Positions 14,025 through 20,876 of a stretch of 64,000 bases of DNA are shown here, one piece after another; positions within the stretch are counted from its first letter, which is position 1; every line of letters begins with the position of its first letter. Origin of the DNA: Halobacillus karajensis (lineage in GTDB: Bacteria > Bacillota > Bacilli > Bacillales > Halobacillaceae); assembly GCF_900108515.1 (NCBI RefSeq), contig NZ_FNWW01000001.1, forward strand, positions 806,001-870,000, written 5' to 3'. Below the pieces are notes generated by a model. It saw only the letters and a program-made list of their open reading frames with translations. It did no database searches and was not told the DNA's origin. Made by a program: the position numbers and the translations under genes.

Positions 14025-15359
14025 TTAGGGTAAATATTTACGTGGGTTTACAGAGTTAGAACGACTTCCATTCCAGCTTCCTTCGTGAATCTCGAAGTGT
14101 AAATGCTGTCCAGTAGAAGCACCAGTGCTTCCCATGTTACCAAGGAACTGACCTCTAGAAACGGACTGTCCTGCTGAAACCGCTGGTGTACTTCTCATAT
14201 GTGCATAAACAGTCGTAAACGTTTGACCATTCATGCGGTGGGAGATCATAACCACATTACCGTAGCTTGATGAGTAATTGGCACGAATAACCGTTCCGTC
14301 TGCTGCAGCGCTAATCGGAATCGTCCCACCACCGGCTAAATCAATCCCTGAGTGTAGTTTAGGTTCACCCGTTATAGGGTGAATTCTATTACGATCAAAT
14401 TCTGAAGTAACCGCTGCATTTGCCGGCCAGCTAAATAGTGCTCCACTATTTGAAGAGGTGGATTTGCTGGATGAGCTTGAGCTAGAATGGGAGCTGGAAC
14501 TGTTAGTGCTTGCTGTAGAGGCACTGGCTTTCTTTTCAGCAGCCGCTTTTTCTGCAGCTCTCTTTCTTGCTTCCTCTGCCTCTTTACGCTTACGTTCTTT
14601 TTCGCGTTCAATTTCTTTCTGGATCGCCGCTTCTTGTGCAGATAGTGTTTCCTGCTCCTCTTCCATACTCATTACATGGTTATGAGCGACTTCTTCATCT
14701 TTTTCAAGTTTTTCCATTAAAGCATTTTTCTCTTGTTTTTTCTGATCTAATTCTTGTTTCAATGTTTCAAGTTCTTGTAGTTTCTCTTCAAGAGAAGCTA
14801 ATTCTTCTTCAACTTGGGCTTTCTTTTTCTCTACTTCTTCTTTATCCGCTTTATGCTGTTCAAGAATCTCTTTATCCTGCGAAGCAATGGTATTTAGACT
14901 CATGACTCGTTCTAAGAAGTTTCCGAAACTCTCAGCCCCCATCAAGACATCTAGATAGTCCACTGCTCCACCTGTTTGATACATCGATTTAACACGATCT
15001 TTCAGCAATTCATCACGTTCAGCAATTCGTTCCTCAAGTTCAGCAATCTCTGCTTTTAACTGTTCTATATTTTCTTTCGTTTGAGCGATTTCGTTCTCTT
15101 TAGTTTCAATCTTCTCTTTCGCTTCCATGACCTGCTTGTCCAGGCTAGCAATTTCTTCGTTCACTTTTTCTTGTTCTTTCTTAAGCTTTTCAATTTCTTC
15201 CTGTTTTTCTTTTTTTTCTTTCTCAATTTCCGATTGTTTCGAGCGGTTTTTCTCTAATTTCTCCTGGTTTGTTTCCGCATTAACTGTATTCGAATACAGT
15301 GGAAAACCAGAGAAAACAAGGCTGACGATCAGAGCGGCAACTAAAATTTTCAACTTCAA
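14025..15359 (-). CDS. Coiled-coil M23 murein hydrolase (EnvC/PcsB-like)
   Basis: Secreted peptidoglycan endopeptidase or hydrolase activator. A signal peptide covers about residues 1-29 (ends TVNAE), a very long coiled coil rich in Glu/Lys covers about 30-260, a Ser-rich linker follows, and the M23 domain fills the last 120 residues. Zinc ligands are in HSGIDLAGG and HLHFEIH. The start is a TTG at 15359 with GGAGG seven bases upstream. ftsX lies upstream on the same strand. In other Firmicutes FtsEX transmits ATP hydrolysis to coiled-coil hydrolases of just this type, so this protein is the likely partner of the FtsX here. Confidence 0.88.
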   Translation of the reverse strand: MKLKILVAALIVSLVFSGFPLYSNTVNAETNQEKLEKNRSKQSEIEKEKKEKQEEIEKLKKEQEKVNEEIASLDKQVMEAKEKIETKENEIAQTKENIEQLKAEIAELEERIAERDELLKDRVKSMYQTGGAVDYLDVLMGAESFGNFLERVMSLNTIASQDKEILEQHKADKEEVEKKKAQVEEELASLEEKLQELETLKQELDQKKQEKNALMEKLEKDEEVAHNHVMSMEEEQETLSAQEAAIQKEIEREKERKRKEAEEARKRAAEKAAAEKKASASTASTNSSSSHSSSSSSSKSTSSNSGALFSWPANAAVTSEFDRNRIHPITGEPKLHSGIDLAGGGTIPISAAADGTVIRANYSSSYGNVVMISHRMNGQTFTTVYAHMRSTPAVSAGQSVSRGQFLGNMGSTGASTGQHLHFEIHEGSWNGSRSNSVNPRKYLP

Positions 15360-15413: not shown

Positions 15414-16307
15414 TTAAACTTTAAGATATTTACGAATGGATGTGAAGCTCCCCCACAGTCCAATGACCACACCCATAATCATTAAGAGTGCTGAAACCTT
15501 CCACACAAACGGGTAGACAGGCAATAATTCAATGAACAGCGTAGGATATTTAGTATTGATTTCTGTATAAACGTAGTCATAGCCGAAAATGACAACTGCA
15601 ATCGGAAGAAGTGAACCAAGAACTCCGATCAAAATCCCTTCAAAAAGGAATGGCCAGCGGATAAACCAGTTCGTAGCCCCAACCATTTTCATGATCTCTA
15701 TTTCTCTTTTACGTGCTACAATTGTAATTCTAATTGTATTAGCAATGAGGAACATGGCTGTAAATAGTAATCCGGCTATAATCGCTAATCCGACATTACG
15801 AGCAACATCCATAACATTAAACAGGCGCTCTACAGTCTCTTTTGCATATTCGACTTTTTCTACACCATTGAAATCCTCAATGGTTTGGGCCACCTTTATC
15901 GTATCTTCAGGCTGGTCTGTTTGGACAATGAATACATCGTTCAACGGATTTTCATCCTTCAATGAGGCAAAAACTTCTCCATCGTCTCCCAGGCTCTCAA
16001 TTAATTGCTCAAGGCCCTCTTCTTTCGATTGGAATTCTACAGAGGACACGTCAGATATTCCTTCTATTTCTTCTTTTAATTGATCCCGACTATTATCCTC
16101 TGCCGTTCGATCAATAAACACGCGTACTTCAACATCTTCTTCTATCTGTGAACCGATATCATTCAAATTCAAAAGCAATGTGGCAAAAACACCGACTAAT
16201 AATAACGTTACTGTCACAGCTGATATGGAAGCTATGGACATCCAACGGTTTCTAGCCAGACTTTTAACGCCTTCCTTACCATGGCGACCAAATGTCTTAA
16301 ACTTCAT
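15414..16307 (-). CDS. ftsX: Cell-division protein FtsX, without adjacent ftsE
   Basis: Permease-like subunit of FtsEX, which controls wall hydrolases at division or elongation sites. Features are SLARNRWMSIASISAVTVTLLLVG at the first membrane segment, an extracellular domain around 45-165, and three C-terminal membrane segments with IVARKREIEIMKMVGATNWFI between the second and third. The ATG at 16307 (297 residues) matches the family start and follows GGGGTGA; an in-frame ATG at 16337 is less likely. Normally ftsE overlaps the ftsX start, but no ATPase gene is found in the 600 bases upstream. A 37-codon open stretch in another frame ends within the first codons of ftsX and does not resemble FtsE. 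Confidence 0.92.
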   Translation of the reverse strand: MKFKTFGRHGKEGVKSLARNRWMSIASISAVTVTLLLVGVFATLLLNLNDIGSQIEEDVEVRVFIDRTAEDNSRDQLKEEIEGISDVSSVEFQSKEEGLEQLIESLGDDGEVFASLKDENPLNDVFIVQTDQPEDTIKVAQTIEDFNGVEKVEYAKETVERLFNVMDVARNVGLAIIAGLLFTAMFLIANTIRITIVARKREIEIMKMVGATNWFIRWPFLFEGILIGVLGSLLPIAVVIFGYDYVYTEINTKYPTLFIELLPVYPFVWKVSALLMIMGVVIGLWGSFTSIRKYLKV

Positions 16308-16871
16308 GATGCTGGTCACCCCAATTTTCCCGTTCAATATTTATATCGTTTCGAACGGTTTCCCTCAAATCATAAGATGCTTGGCTGCGGTGATGCCGAT
16401 CAAACAATTTATATCACTTCCTACTAAACTCTCATTTTTGTATCTCTGTGTTGTCAATTATATGTAGATTCAGTCGTCTGCTTCATTTACCCTAACCATT
16501 ATATCAAAGATATTCGCTAAATAAAGACAAATTATTATTACATTTATGTTTCATAATATAACAAACTCCACAAATTATTGCGTTTCCGGTGGACAAGATA
16601 CGAGAAGATCCCCCTCTAAACCAGTCTTTAAGTCATGGGTTTTATAGACTATAAATGTTCCTTAGATACTTTTGAAAAGAGCCAAGTTCTGTGTTTGATG
16701 CTCTATTAATTCAAAAAAAGGCATTCCATGAACACCTGTACGCTTTCCCTATAAAAAATGGGAGATCATATAAATCATTTAAAAACCTAATGACAAAACC
16801 AAATTTCATCGCTGTCTTTCAAGCCCCTACCTAACCACTAAAACCGCCTATTCATTGACGAAAAAAGAAAG
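16308..16871. other. Intergenic region where ftsE would be expected
   Basis: No gene seen. The stretch is AT-rich with stops in all frames. A TTGACA on the minus strand (16457-16452) could be a -35 element for ftsX, but no good -10 follows at 16-18 bases. Confidence 0.4.
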
Positions 16872-16910: not shown

Positions 16911-17192
16911 TCAATATATCCTTTTCTTCAAAGATTCCAACTCTCGTTTTAACCGGTAATTTTCCTCCCGTATGGAATCAAGACTTTCCGGTTTCCCTTT
17001 AGATGGATGTAAACAGACTTCATACCATGACTTCCTATAGGCGTCATGGACTTCACTTGTCCTTCTGATTACAGCTGAAGGGAAGTGGGTCTTCAAATGG
17101 GTGAGCTCTTTTTCTGAAAGCCTTAATTCTCTGAACGAAATTCCCTCTCTGAAGGAATCTGACAAAAACTGTTCAAATTCATTTTTCGTCAC
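16911..17192 (-). CDS. Hypothetical protein with C-terminal coiled coil
   Basis: About 93 residues, polar, with a C-terminal heptad-like helix (ENYRLKRELESLKKRIY) and no signal peptide or membrane segment. I do not recognise the family. Two GTG starts are possible; the one at 17192 has GAGGGGTG six bases upstream and is preferred over 17201. It lies 61 bases behind the racemase gene on the same strand and could belong to that transcript, then ends in a terminator. The middle (FPSAVIRRTSEVHDAYRKSW) is basic, so nucleic-acid binding is conceivable. Confidence 0.55.
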   Translation of the reverse strand: MTKNEFEQFLSDSFREGISFRELRLSEKELTHLKTHFPSAVIRRTSEVHDAYRKSWYEVCLHPSKGKPESLDSIREENYRLKRELESLKKRIY

Positions 17193-17253
17193 ATGAAGCA
17201 CCCCTCTTGAAGAAATTATTCTACGTTACAAATATAAGAGGGATGGGTGCTTT

Positions 17254-17964
17254 TCATGACTTTTGATAGACAGTTTCTTTCACAACAACGTTCGCAATGA
17301 CTTCCATCGGGTCAATCAATGGAACAGGAAGGTGATATGGCTTCAATACAAGCCCAATCTCTGTACAGCCGGATATGATAAGCTCCGCCCCATTGTCTAA
17401 TAACTCCTGTGAAGCATCTTTTAGAAGTTGAAGTGGTTCTCCGTCCGTGTTGCCACTTTTAATTCCATTTTCACCGTAAATTGCACGCATAACCTTTTCA
17501 TTTTGCGTATAAGGTGTTGGGTTAATAACTTCCAAATGATCGAAATACTTTTGGAATAGTCCTGTTTCTAATGTACCGGTTGTAGCAAGAACCCCAATTC
17601 TTTTAACATTCGGATAATAATCCTGAATAAATTTTTTCAATTCAAGAAATGCATTTAGCAATGGAAAGGAAACAGATTTTTGCACCTCTTCAATGAAGTA
17701 GTGAGCAGTCATACAGGGAATACAAGCGACATCCACTTGAAGTTTCTCCAGGTTTTTGGCTGTATGAATCATTTCAGGAACAGGGTTTTCCCCTCTTCCC
17801 GAAATAGCTTCAGTTCGGTCAGGAATCTTCGCATTGCTATCTATGATGACTCTGTAGTGTTCTTGATCTTTGCCTGCATTCGTCGCACGTATTATTTTTA
17901 AATAACATTCGGCTGTTGCTTCAGGCCCCATCCCCCCGAGTATGCCGATTATTTTATCATTCAC
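17254..17964 (-). CDS. Aspartate/glutamate racemase family protein
   Basis: Cofactor-independent racemase interconverting L- and D-aspartate (or glutamate). Starts with the family signature GILGGMGPEAT. The two catalytic cysteines are Cys84 (IPCMTAH) and Cys200 (ISGCTEIGL). The GTG at 17964 has TAGGAGG seven bases upstream and gives 236 residues, normal for the family; an ATG at 18006 is in frame but poorly placed. It is the last of three genes with a Mur ligase and an ATP-grasp ligase. With that company D-aspartate for cell-wall bridges is the likely product, which is inference. Confidence 0.85.
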   Translation of the reverse strand: MNDKIIGILGGMGPEATAECYLKIIRATNAGKDQEHYRVIIDSNAKIPDRTEAISGRGENPVPEMIHTAKNLEKLQVDVACIPCMTAHYFIEEVQKSVSFPLLNAFLELKKFIQDYYPNVKRIGVLATTGTLETGLFQKYFDHLEVINPTPYTQNEKVMRAIYGENGIKSGNTDGEPLQLLKDASQELLDNGAELIISGCTEIGLVLKPYHLPVPLIDPMEVIANVVVKETVYQKS

Positions 17965-18011
17965 TGTTTTGCCTCCTAACAAACGACCGGAACCTTGCTG
18001 TGACAATGGAA

Positions 18012-19556
18012 TTAGAGGACCCCCGCAACTCTGTTCTTCAACGGTTTGAATAACTTCTCTTCATCCATATCCGGGCGTGTTTTCTTCAGCTGTTCCAAGG
18101 CGATTTTTGCACCTGGGTCCATACCTTGACAGCCCGCGAGTAAGATGACGTCATCCTCTTCTACTTCAGATAAGGCATGATGGATTGCATCATCTAATTC
18201 TTTGTATAAATCTACACGTATGCCGGCTTCGTCCATCATTTCCTGGAACACCCGAAGCTCTTCATCTGTAACTATATCTTTCTCTGTGACATGGGAATGG
18301 CTAACAGTGGCGATAATTTCCGTCAGTCCTAATTTTGGCGCCCACTCGACAATGGCTTTCGCATTTTCCCTGTTCACAGTCACGCCTCTGCTACCTCGAA
18401 TGGCATAGACGAGCTTCAGATTGGAGTAATCCATTTGTTCCAATGTATTTAATGTGACATTAATATTCCCATAGTTGGCGAAATGATCATCCAGGATTTT
18501 AAAATCGTCCTCGAAAACCATTTCAAAGCGGCGTTCAACGCCACCGAATCCCTTCAGTCCTGATTGAATCGTTGGAATCGGTATCTCATTCAACAATCCA
18601 ACGGCAATGGCTACCATTGAGTTATAGACAGAGTGATAACCAGGGGTGGATAATTCAATCGTAAATTCCTGCGGCTCATAACTTGCCCCATTCACTGTGA
18701 AAGGTTTACGGATTTCCACAGTGAATTTGGCTCTCCCTGTAGAAAGATCAAGATTTTTACAAATGATATCTCCATCTCCTGTTTCCACACTAAAGGTAAG
18801 GAGGTTTGCTTTTGTCTCATCAACTAATGAAGCAGAATAAGCATCATCAAGGTTCAAAATTGCCCATTTGTCTTCACCAGCATTGCGAATTAGACTCGCT
18901 TTACTATTGAAATACTCTTCAAAGGAACCATGAAGATCAATATGCTCCCGGCTGATATTATTTAGTGAAACAATATCAAAATCAACACTGCCGACCCGGC
19001 TTAAATCCAAGGCAGATGAAGATACTTCCATCGTTACATGCGAGACATCCTGATCTCTCATTTGAGCAAAATAATGGTGCAGATCCAGTGATTCAGGCGT
19101 CGTCAACTTTGTAGGCTCAGAATAATCTCCGAATTTAACAACAACGGTACCAATCAAACCTGTTTTGAGACCATGTTCTTCCAGAATGGCATCAGTCATG
19201 AATGAGGTGGACGTTTTTCCATTCGTTGCTGTAATTCCAACCGTTTTCATCGACTGTGAAGGGTGATGATAGAAAGCATCACTTAAAGCTGCGAGGGCTC
19301 TGCGACTGTCTTCTACACGGTATTGGGGGACATCCCAACCATTCTGGTAGTCCTCAACCACAATCGCGACCGCTCCATTTTTTATGGCTTCTGCCACATA
19401 TTTATGCCCATCTGTCTTAAACCCTTTAATGCAGACGAACACATCCCCCTGCCCTACATTCCTTGAATTGTAGGCAAGTCCCCCGACATCCCGTTCCTCA
19501 TCATTCCAGGATTCTACTACATCGATGAATGATAGTAATTCTTTTAACTTAGCCAT
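18012..19556 (-). CDS. MurE-like Mur ligase with altered C-terminal substrate domain
   Basis: 514 residues with the three-domain Mur ligase plan. N-terminal UDP-MurNAc-binding part: YNSRNVGQGDVFVCIKG (29-45). Central ATPase: GITATNGKTS (107-116), TTPESLDL, MEVSSSAL (Ser181 where most MurE have His) and the candidate carbamylated Lys219 (FNSKASLI). In the C-terminal part the invariant DYAHTPD is replaced by LDDHFANYGNI (355-365), and the DNPR (diaminopimelate) or DNPAN (lysine) motif is absent, with SHSHVTEKDI at 419-428. It should therefore add a different amino acid or act on another acceptor. L-ornithine is a candidate given the ATP-grasp and racemase partners. The usual murE may sit elsewhere. 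Confidence 0.75.
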   Translation of the reverse strand: MAKLKELLSFIDVVESWNDEERDVGGLAYNSRNVGQGDVFVCIKGFKTDGHKYVAEAIKNGAVAIVVEDYQNGWDVPQYRVEDSRRALAALSDAFYHHPSQSMKTVGITATNGKTSTSFMTDAILEEHGLKTGLIGTVVVKFGDYSEPTKLTTPESLDLHHYFAQMRDQDVSHVTMEVSSSALDLSRVGSVDFDIVSLNNISREHIDLHGSFEEYFNSKASLIRNAGEDKWAILNLDDAYSASLVDETKANLLTFSVETGDGDIICKNLDLSTGRAKFTVEIRKPFTVNGASYEPQEFTIELSTPGYHSVYNSMVAIAVGLLNEIPIPTIQSGLKGFGGVERRFEMVFEDDFKILDDHFANYGNINVTLNTLEQMDYSNLKLVYAIRGSRGVTVNRENAKAIVEWAPKLGLTEIIATVSHSHVTEKDIVTDEELRVFQEMMDEAGIRVDLYKELDDAIHHALSEVEEDDVILLAGCQGMDPGAKIALEQLKKTRPDMDEEKLFKPLKNRVAGVL

Positions 19557-19685
19557 TCTTATCTACCTTCCCTGCATTTTTTTGCCTATTTTTGGAATTC
19601 ATTTCTTCCGTCCATATCCTTCGATTACTGGTTAGCATTTCCTACAGTCAGGATTCACTATTCTTTAGCATCAAAGATCTTGGAC

Positions 19686-20876
19686 TTATTTATCTTTCTT
19701 CGTCACTTTATTGACAACCAGACCAGCCAACTTCTTCCCAAAGGAAAAGGCCGGTTTCGGATCTTTAGGGTCCCAGATGGCATGCGCTTTCGGTCTAAAG
19801 TAAGATTTCAGCACCTTCTGCGGGGAGAGTTGTCCTGTTTTGATATATTCCCTTACCGCCAAGAGATCTTCATAAGCATACCAGAAGACTAGGTTTTGAT
19901 CTTCTTCCACTGCCTTTGGTGTCACGGGGTCTCCCGTAAGATCCTTGTATGTGATATATGGAATATTAATCCCTGTTTTCTGCAAGAGATGATTTAAATT
20001 GGTAATTCTTACATTAATCTCAATCAAGTAATACTGCCCTGTTTCTGCATCCTTCTTAAACTCAATCTCTGCGAATCCTTTATATCCAATACCTTCTAAA
20101 AATTTTGCCCCTAATTCGTAAAGTTCCGGGACGTACTTTTGCTGTGTGTAAACAGATGCGCCATAATTAACTGGAAATTGTCGAAGCTTTTGACAGGTTA
20201 CCCAGTGAGTAACTTTAGCATTTTGATCCAGATAAGCATCGAAGGTATACATATGATCGTCAAAGCCAGGGATCATTCGCTGGACAATCACTTCTATATT
20301 GGCTTCTTTTGCCTGTTCAACTTTATCCAGTAATTCTTCTTTATTATGAACTTTAAAAAGCTTCCGTCTGAACTTAGATACAAAAGCCGGTGAATCCACA
20401 GGCTTTACTAAGCAAGGGTACTTGATTTCTTTTTCAACCTTCTCAACGAGATTATCGTCATCCATTTGAACGGTTTCCGGAACAGCCACCCCGTGTTGGG
20501 AAGCCAGCGTATGCAAGGTTCCCTTGTCCATTATTTTAGTATATAACCCTTGTTCAGTTTGAGGAATAAGGAAATATTCCCGTAATTCTTGCAGGTATTC
20601 ATCTACAAATTCAACATATGGATCGGCTGTCGGAATAAGCACGGGGGAGTTGTCCTGTTTCTTTGCATAGTCAATAAGGAACGTTTTCAAACCTTCCGGG
20701 TCCTCTTTATAATGGGGGCCAATCAGAACTTCAGAGCAGTATTTTGACTCAAGCCCATACGCCCCTTCCCAGGAATAATCAACTGCAGCGACATGGACGT
20801 CATGGATGCCCAGACACCTGATCGTACTTAGTCCTATATAATAGTTAGCTCCTAGAACAACGGCTTTATTTGCCAT
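19686..20876 (-). CDS. ATP-grasp ligase resembling D-aspartate ligase (Asl)
   Basis: 396 residues. Topology and motifs resemble Enterococcus faecium Asl, which joins the beta-carboxyl of D-Asp to the diamino acid of the peptidoglycan stem: an N-terminal Rossmann-like part (AVVLGANYYIGLSTIRCLG), IMDKGTLHTLASQHGVAVPETV, KYPCLVKPVDSPAF, VQRMIPGFDDHMYTF, and the ATP/Mg-binding end GFAEIEFKKDAETGQYYLIEIN. Gene order ligase, Mur ligase, racemase on one strand supports a role in an Asp-containing cross-bridge. A 129-base gap separates it from the Mur gene. Other carboxylate-amine ligases of the same fold remain possible. Confidence 0.7.
   Translation of the reverse strand: MANKAVVLGANYYIGLSTIRCLGIHDVHVAAVDYSWEGAYGLESKYCSEVLIGPHYKEDPEGLKTFLIDYAKKQDNSPVLIPTADPYVEFVDEYLQELREYFLIPQTEQGLYTKIMDKGTLHTLASQHGVAVPETVQMDDDNLVEKVEKEIKYPCLVKPVDSPAFVSKFRRKLFKVHNKEELLDKVEQAKEANIEVIVQRMIPGFDDHMYTFDAYLDQNAKVTHWVTCQKLRQFPVNYGASVYTQQKYVPELYELGAKFLEGIGYKGFAEIEFKKDAETGQYYLIEINVRITNLNHLLQKTGINIPYITYKDLTGDPVTPKAVEEDQNLVFWYAYEDLLAVREYIKTGQLSPQKVLKSYFRPKAHAIWDPKDPKPAFSFGKKLAGLVVNKVTKKDK

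Follow-up and report, generated by a model that had tools for sequence, protein, structure and literature searches.

What step is catalysed by an atypical Mur ligase whose gene lies between those of an ATP-grasp ligase and a racemase of the Asp/Glu type? The question is raised by three adjacent genes, sharing one reading direction on the minus strand, in a 64,000-nucleotide stretch of DNA (hereafter the window) from the 4.07 Mb genome of Halobacillus karajensis. Halobacillus has a cell wall of the L-Orn-D-Asp type, and an original prediction, made from the letters of the window, suggested that the three genes form a unit that makes D-Asp, attaches it and acts on a UDP-N-acetylmuramic acid (UDP-MurNAc) peptide. 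The gene set itself was confirmed: the minus strand carries all three open reading frames (ORFs), at the coordinates given in Table 1. On the best reading of the results presented here, the Mur ligase is an enzyme of MurE's step which belongs to a separate clade and carries an amino-acid domain like that of the archaeal pseudomurein ligase pMurE, and the three genes are a module by which the wall receives D-Asp and ornithine.

The gene set is more than a chance arrangement, as the Mur ligase was found in all of the 22 searched genomes of the window's genus (22/22) and distant Bacilli and Clostridia show the same order of ATP-grasp ligase, Mur ligase and racemase.

Irregular forms of the Mur ligase gene were also seen. 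In G014, a genome of the window's genus, it consists of two overlapping open frames (L052:5893-7445) and is broken or misassembled there. Thalassobacillus pellis (L124 and L048:6921-10780) has two copies, 74% and 61% identical to that of the window, which flank one racemase gene.

Phylogeny and domain composition of the Mur ligase

When 55 Mur ligases were placed in a carefully built tree, the window's type formed one group (100/98) with a diverged duplicate from Alkalibacterium and Marinilactibacillus and with a third, clostridial type. Canonical MurE proteins, both diaminopimelate (DAP)- and Lys-adding, formed a separate group (92/87) together with the C11-type MurE, which is characterized by a DDLN motif and has a member also on host contig C11. 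A quick tree of 88 rows agrees; in it the duplicate falls inside the Mur ligase type, and another host protein, the long-branched C2, groups with canonical MurE. Clustering inside ordinary MurE, the outcome set beforehand as speaking against the original prediction, was not seen in the 55-sequence tree. Based on the tree and the motifs described below, an ordinary MurE identity was rejected for this protein.

The Mur ligase passes the MurE subfamily model TIGR01085 (288.6 bits, cut-off 257.3). It stays under the listed cut-offs of the DAP-adding MurE equivalogs (at best 311.3 against 373), under that of the Lys-adding equivalog PRK14022 (189.3 bits against 536) and, when taken whole, far under that of the pMurE model NF053648 (172 bits against 600); NCBI models at present score it at subfamily level only. 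The two parts of the protein behave differently. For residues 1-338 the best model was of the MurE type, at 284 bits against 43 bits for pMurE, and for residues 340-514 the NCBIfam pMurE model gave 115 bits against 20 bits for the best MurE model. When compared with the Protein Data Bank (PDB), the C-terminal part matched three archaeal pMurE sequences (1.6e-16, 1.6e-16 and 4.1e-15), and bacterial MurE was absent among its five matches, the other two of which stood at 0.018 and 0.96. As controls, the homologous C-terminal parts from Acetoanaerobium, Chryseomicrobium and Marinilactibacillus gave 108-112 bits with pMurE. The C-termini of the MurE encoded in the host's division and cell wall (dcw) cluster, of C11 and of Staphylococcus aureus and Escherichia coli MurE gave 119-309 bits with their best model, which was of the MurE type, and with pMurE they gave about 22 bits or less or were not listed.

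Alignment to the MurE proteins of S. aureus and E. coli bears out the original prediction on the motifs, with those for UDP-MurNAc and ATP preserved, DYAHTPD replaced and DNPR/DNPA absent. Retained are the ATP loop TATNGKT, TTPE, EVSS, R187 and, at K219, the carbamyl-lysine position; a DDHFANYGN region is found where MurE has DYAHTPD, and S-x-S-H stands at the DNPR position. DYAHTPD and DNPR are missing because the C-terminal domain is pMurE-like. Judged from these residues, the UDP-MurNAc-dipeptide side of the enzyme looks kept and the side for the incoming amino acid looks replaced. An AlphaFold2 model, built from a 39-sequence alignment with a mean pLDDT of 90.8, had S. aureus MurE with product as its best Foldseek match (4c12, TMq 0.79). 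In the parts of the S. aureus study consulted, Asp-406 and Glu-460 of MurE are described as holding the omega-amino group of lysine (PMC3829189). Asp-406 corresponds to S419 in 27/27 aligned members of the Mur ligase type and in 6/6 aligned duplicates, and Glu-460 corresponds to M479, or to D480 with another gap placement.

Fold, ATP site, carbamyl-lysine position, UDP-MurNAc-dipeptide motifs and the TIGR01085 subfamily pass are thus common to the Mur ligase and MurE, whereas the separate clade, the absence of DYAHTPD, DNPR and DNPA, the scores under the DAP and Lys cut-offs and the C-terminal domain set it apart from MurE of the DAP, Lys and Thermotoga types. Archaeal pMurE (NF053648; PDB 6vr8, 7ufp and 7tzi) has a similar C-terminal domain, with IRGSRG and GAQGMDP-like motifs, but the Mur ligase differs from it in its MurE-like N-terminal and middle domains, its low whole-protein score and its bacterial host. 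The C11-type MurE is also of the MurE family; however, it clusters with canonical MurE and its C-terminal domain is MurE-like (119 bits, pMurE unlisted).

In aligned members of the third clostridial MurE-like type (L163, L296-L306, L322 and L323), DYAHTPD gives way to DDFSHNP or DDFCHNP. The C-terminal domain of the one protein tested is pMurE-like (133.5 bits), and in every genome of L296-L306 one or more further MurE-like matches are listed. The diverged duplicate in Alkalibacterium and Marinilactibacillus (L173, L176, L166, L170, L251 and L153) is about 39-47% identical to the Mur ligase and, in its aligned members, shows DDLLLN or DDLFLN where the Mur ligase has DDHFAN; a second specificity is possible for this protein.

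Probable replacement of MurE in other genomes

Because a canonical murE is present in its genome, Halobacillus alone gives no proof of the role of the Mur ligase. Nine Mur ligase middle domains were found in the host, namely those of the dcw murE, murF, murD, murC, folC and PgsB (murC and folC being named from sequence rather than by a model) and of three MurE-like proteins, on contigs C11 and C2 and in the window. The dcw copy is the second, canonical murE for which a check had been advised in the original prediction. The spore-forming host would keep its canonical dcw MurE so that the spore cortex can be built with DAP. The two paralogues, at L010:8069-9547 and L011:7026-8534, are C11, with DDLN, and C2, with DHPAHHDP.

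Other carriers were surveyed in a sample of 118 clostridial genomes, comprising Acetoanaerobium pronyense and relatives, in which a match at E 1e-40 was counted as MurE-like. The Mur ligase type was found in 15 of them (at least 540 bits), and in eight of these 15 it is the sole MurE-like match. The remaining 103 genomes include 90 with a MurE-like match and 13 with none at E 1e-40. Inventories of Mur_ligase_M domains in the eight single-MurE genomes revealed no additional MurE-like protein. The dcw clusters of seven of the eight (G458 was left out) were read, and in none of these does a murE precede murF. In G143, G404, G408, G419, G430 and G441, murF comes directly after ftsI/spoVD; in G436 it is preceded by an ORF of 745 amino acids (aa) that has no match in the reference set.

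The closed record of Acetoanaerobium noterae DSL2 (NZ_CP154629.1, 2.63 Mb) gives the same picture. The best match of a canonical MurE query is the Mur ligase gene itself, the gap between ftsI/spoVD and murF measures 58 bp, and the ATP-grasp, Mur and racemase genes are found together. This record and G404 may be of the same species, and the Acetoanaerobium evidence stands apart from G430 and G458, which are possibly incomplete. No MurE-like proteins other than the Mur ligase type and its duplicate were seen in Alkalibacterium gilvum and in Marinilactibacillus psychrotolerans; in each, one of six Mur matches, beyond those listed, scored below 90 bits.

Since the Mur ligase is the sole MurE-like match in eight genomes, with no murE before murF in the seven dcw clusters read, it very probably performs MurE's step, a function reached here by genetic inference from other genomes. 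The original prediction had left open an ornithine-adding enzyme, acting at MurE's step, and a second-step ligase; the eight genomes and seven dcw clusters favour the former and disfavour the latter. The replacement of murE shows the step, but not the amino acid.

As a separate observation, NZ_CP154629.1 (L354 and L357) is filed as plasmid pTPELB2, although it is circular, bears the dcw cluster and looks like a chromosome.

The ATP-grasp ligase and the racemase

The ATP-grasp protein, P0002, is over the Pfam cut-offs of Dala_Dala_lig_C (PF07478; 34 against 24 bits) and CPSase_L_D2 (PF02786; 29.9 against 19.8). Among the best 20 of its 91 similarity matches, the Acetoanaerobium protein is 69% identical and the others are below 30%. 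The racemase occupies an open frame from 17254 to 18006, with the likely start at GTG 17964, behind AGGAGG (around 17972-17977), and not at TTG 18006. It scores 185.7 with TIGR00035 (cut-off 93.1), its best PDB match is the aspartate racemase 1jfl (4.5e-57), and both of the catalytic cysteines noted in the original prediction are present (PCMTAH and GCTE).

According to the parts consulted of a study of Lactococcus lactis, aslA and racD form one operon, the D-Asp ligase works via beta-aspartyl phosphate, and AsnH amidates D-Asp after its addition (PMC4155827). The module resembles the Asl/AslA and RacD systems of Enterococcus faecium and L. lactis in gene context and family, with an ATP-grasp protein encoded near an aspartate-type racemase, but differs in that a Mur ligase gene is joined in between the two.

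A scan of named genomes found 232 relatives, of which the best 80 loci were kept, with neighbours recorded to a distance of about 8 kb as far as the contigs permitted. Of the 80 loci, 64 have an ATP-grasp gene of the P0002 cluster and 51 have the racemase, although one of the 64, in M. psychrotolerans (L107), is really of a divergent type (28% identical). The 16 loci without it comprise 11 of Psychrobacillus type, three from Chryseomicrobium or Tetzosporium and two on short contigs of metagenome-assembled genomes. Among 30 chosen carriers searched genome-wide, 21 have the P0002 type (at least 549 bits) and nine the divergent type only (83-98 bits). The racemase is over its cut-off in the same 21 and in none of the nine, which have weaker racemase matches only, that of M. 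psychrotolerans scoring 106 bits and containing two stops. These 30 carriers are not independent events, and at least two switches were counted, in Planococcaceae and in Marinilactibacillus. Between M. psychrotolerans and M. piezotolerans the Mur ligases are 80% identical and the genes in the ATP-grasp slot 28%, and the racemase is over cut-off in M. piezotolerans but not in M. psychrotolerans. With the Mur ligase constant while the ATP-grasp gene changes, this amounts to a natural swap experiment. The linkage of ATP-grasp type and racemase (21/21 against 0/9) supports the proposition that the genes work as a unit, in which the P0002 type would be specific for D-Asp.

The divergent ATP-grasp family (L247:2416-3633 and L248-L258, in genomes of the Tetzosporium family) may supply the D-glutamate ligase of walls of the L-Orn-D-Glu and L-Lys-D-Glu types; a scan of one member against NCBIfam gave no match at 1e-20. 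Weaker-scoring groups of divergent ATP-grasp proteins (250-430 bits) occur in other members of that family. An asparagine synthase-like gene was found near 9/80 loci (L092, L093, L095, L098, L100, L101, L110, L132 and L133; one was checked with Pfam), and these genes are candidates for amidation of the D-Asp bridge, by analogy with L. lactis AsnH.

The amino acid added by the Mur ligase

The distribution of the Mur ligase among wall types suggests that L-ornithine is probably the amino acid that it adds. In 261 genomes of the Tetzosporium family, with five candidates scored per genome, the Mur ligase type (at least 787 bits) was found in 24 and not found in 237. Eight of the 24 were known from named loci (five Psychrobacillus, two Chryseomicrobium and one Tetzosporium), 15 were assigned to those genera by list block, and one is a short contig (G390). 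Psychrobacillus, Chryseomicrobium and Alkalibacterium are ornithine-wall genera, and Marinilactibacillus has an L-Orn-D-Glu wall. In the consulted parts of one report, the wall of Tetzosporium is given as A4beta L-Orn-D-Glu and those of Planococcus, Paenisporosarcina and Sporosarcina as Lys types (PMC5786688). A literature search found no title or abstract naming an ornithine-specific MurE, and no wall type for Acetoanaerobium, Alkalibacterium, Marinilactibacillus, Psychrobacillus or Filifactor in the sources and portions of sources covered (including part of PMC11253131).

A related ATP-grasp protein (253-780 bits) was found in 21/21 sampled Tetzosporium-family members without the Mur ligase; it therefore seems that the bridge ligase is common to Lys-type walls, and the Mur ligase is not. 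Among the clostridial genomes, 12/13 Mur ligase carriers have an ATP-grasp match (79-110 bits), and a related one was found in 0/7 genomes with only an ordinary MurE-like gene.

The possibility that the Mur ligase itself adds D-Glu or D-Asp was also considered and is disfavoured. The 21 sampled genomes without it, whose walls are presumed to be of Lys type, all keep a related ATP-grasp gene, and in Mur ligases it is the carboxyl of the UDP-linked substrate that is activated rather than the free amino acid.

If the assignment to ornithine is true, the clade provides a marker gene by which ornithine walls can be recognized in Bacilli and Clostridia, its enzyme can be assayed at once, and a bacterial wall ligase has an amino-acid-choosing domain of the kind used by the pseudomurein ligase of methanogens.

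Proposed pathway and alternative explanations

The three genes are likely to serve an L-Orn-D-Asp (A4beta) peptidoglycan, whose third residue they would make and decorate. Acting jointly in the host, the racemase would convert L-Asp to D-Asp, and the Mur ligase, as an enzyme of separate clade with an amino-acid domain of the archaeal pMurE type, would carry out MurE's step. The ATP-grasp ligase would then activate D-Asp as beta-aspartyl phosphate and join it to the delta-amino group of ornithine to give the cross-bridge.

A number of observations weigh against this proposal. The dcw MurE of the host is canonical, with both DYAHTPD and DNPR, and the two further MurE-like paralogues mean that the third-residue step has other candidates. 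A further MurE-like match (240-290 bits) is listed in 14/30 carriers, and the C11-type MurE is retained in Chryseomicrobium, Tetzosporium and Psychrobacillus. G430 and G458 have no match at the usual score of murC, so these assemblies may be incomplete, and G436 carries the Mur ligase with no such ATP-grasp match. Both acids holding the omega-amino group are changed, so a binding mode for ornithine would not be predicted from the alignment. The racemase is also over the cut-off of the NCBI cysteate racemase model NF052483 (202.9 against 190). Among the ornithine taxa, the one whose wall type was taken from print is Tetzosporium. The carriers Cytobacillus, Neobacillus and Cohnella are DAP-wall taxa, and ornithine walls also occur beyond the taxa covered here, as in L. 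fermentum and Deinococcus.

An alternative is that the Mur ligase performs MurE's step with L-lysine, or with lysine or ornithine according to the pools of each host, so that the clade would be defined by its C-terminal domain and not by ornithine. The role as sole MurE leaves the amino acid untold, the wall type of Acetoanaerobium was not found in print, and S. aureus MurE is only loosely specific, using L-Orn at 400-fold lower specificity than L-Lys in the portion of the report consulted (PMC3829189). Such a reading is nevertheless unlikely, given that the Mur ligase was not found in 237/261 genomes of a family with Lys-type genera (PMC5786688, consulted in part), and that the six of these 237 which were looked at all have the C11-type MurE, itself likely to be the Lys type in Planococcaceae. 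The change of both omega-amino-gripping acids, together with the frequent linkage of the two ligases, would be accounted for if the steps of peptidoglycan synthesis came in a novel order, a reading which we regard as distinctly unlikely.

It is very unlikely that the Mur ligase is a second-step enzyme which acts after a normal MurE, for example by extending or amidating the D-Asp arm. The eight genomes show no other enzyme for the third-residue step, the TTPE, EVSS and R187 side that holds the UDP-MurNAc-dipeptide in MurE is kept, and no gene for a glutamine amidotransferase was observed next to the Halobacillus module. These points outweigh the canonical MurE of the host, the further MurE-like matches of the 14 carriers and the frequent linkage to bridge genes, all of which a second-step role would suit. 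A product other than peptidoglycan, such as a capsule or small peptide containing a D-amino acid, is brought to mind by the cysteate racemase call and by the fact that Mur ligases also occur in cyanophycin and poly-gamma-glutamate synthesis, a PgsB being encoded elsewhere in the host genome. It is highly improbable, however, as murE is absent from the otherwise ordinary dcw clusters of carriers, and ftsX and an M23 peptidase gene adjoin the module. The proposal of a module for L-Orn-D-Asp peptidoglycan is thus preferred.

Genomic surroundings of the module

Table 1. Coordinates in the window of the three-gene module, the domains of its Mur ligase and the neighbouring genes.
Feature	Position	Strand	Description
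ATP-grasp ligase P0002	19686-20876	-	396 aa; putative D-aspartate ligase (Asl-like)
Mur ligase P0001	18012-19556	-	514 aa
Mur ligase N-terminal and middle domains, residues 1-338	18543-19556	-	MurE-like
Mur ligase C-terminal amino-acid domain, residues 340-514	18015-18539	-	pMurE-like; DDHFANYGN...IRGSRG...GCQGMD
Racemase	17254-17964	-	236 aa from GTG; putative aspartate racemase
Small ORF 3' of racemase	16911-17201	-	96 aa
ftsX, downstream neighbour	15414-16337	-	Pfam FtsX_ECD and FtsX; outside proposed pathway
M23 peptidase with PcsB coiled coil, murein hydrolase	14025-15359	-	Pfam CC_PcsB and Peptidase_M23; outside proposed pathway

Scans of the window with Rfam and for tRNA found no RNA family and no tRNA, and a promoter scan was no better than shuffles, with 10 found against a shuffle mean of 11.1. 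The small ORF downstream of the racemase has no Pfam match. Small ORFs in this slot form one cluster that is present in 22/80 of the named loci, and the likeness of the window's small ORF to them was judged by eye.

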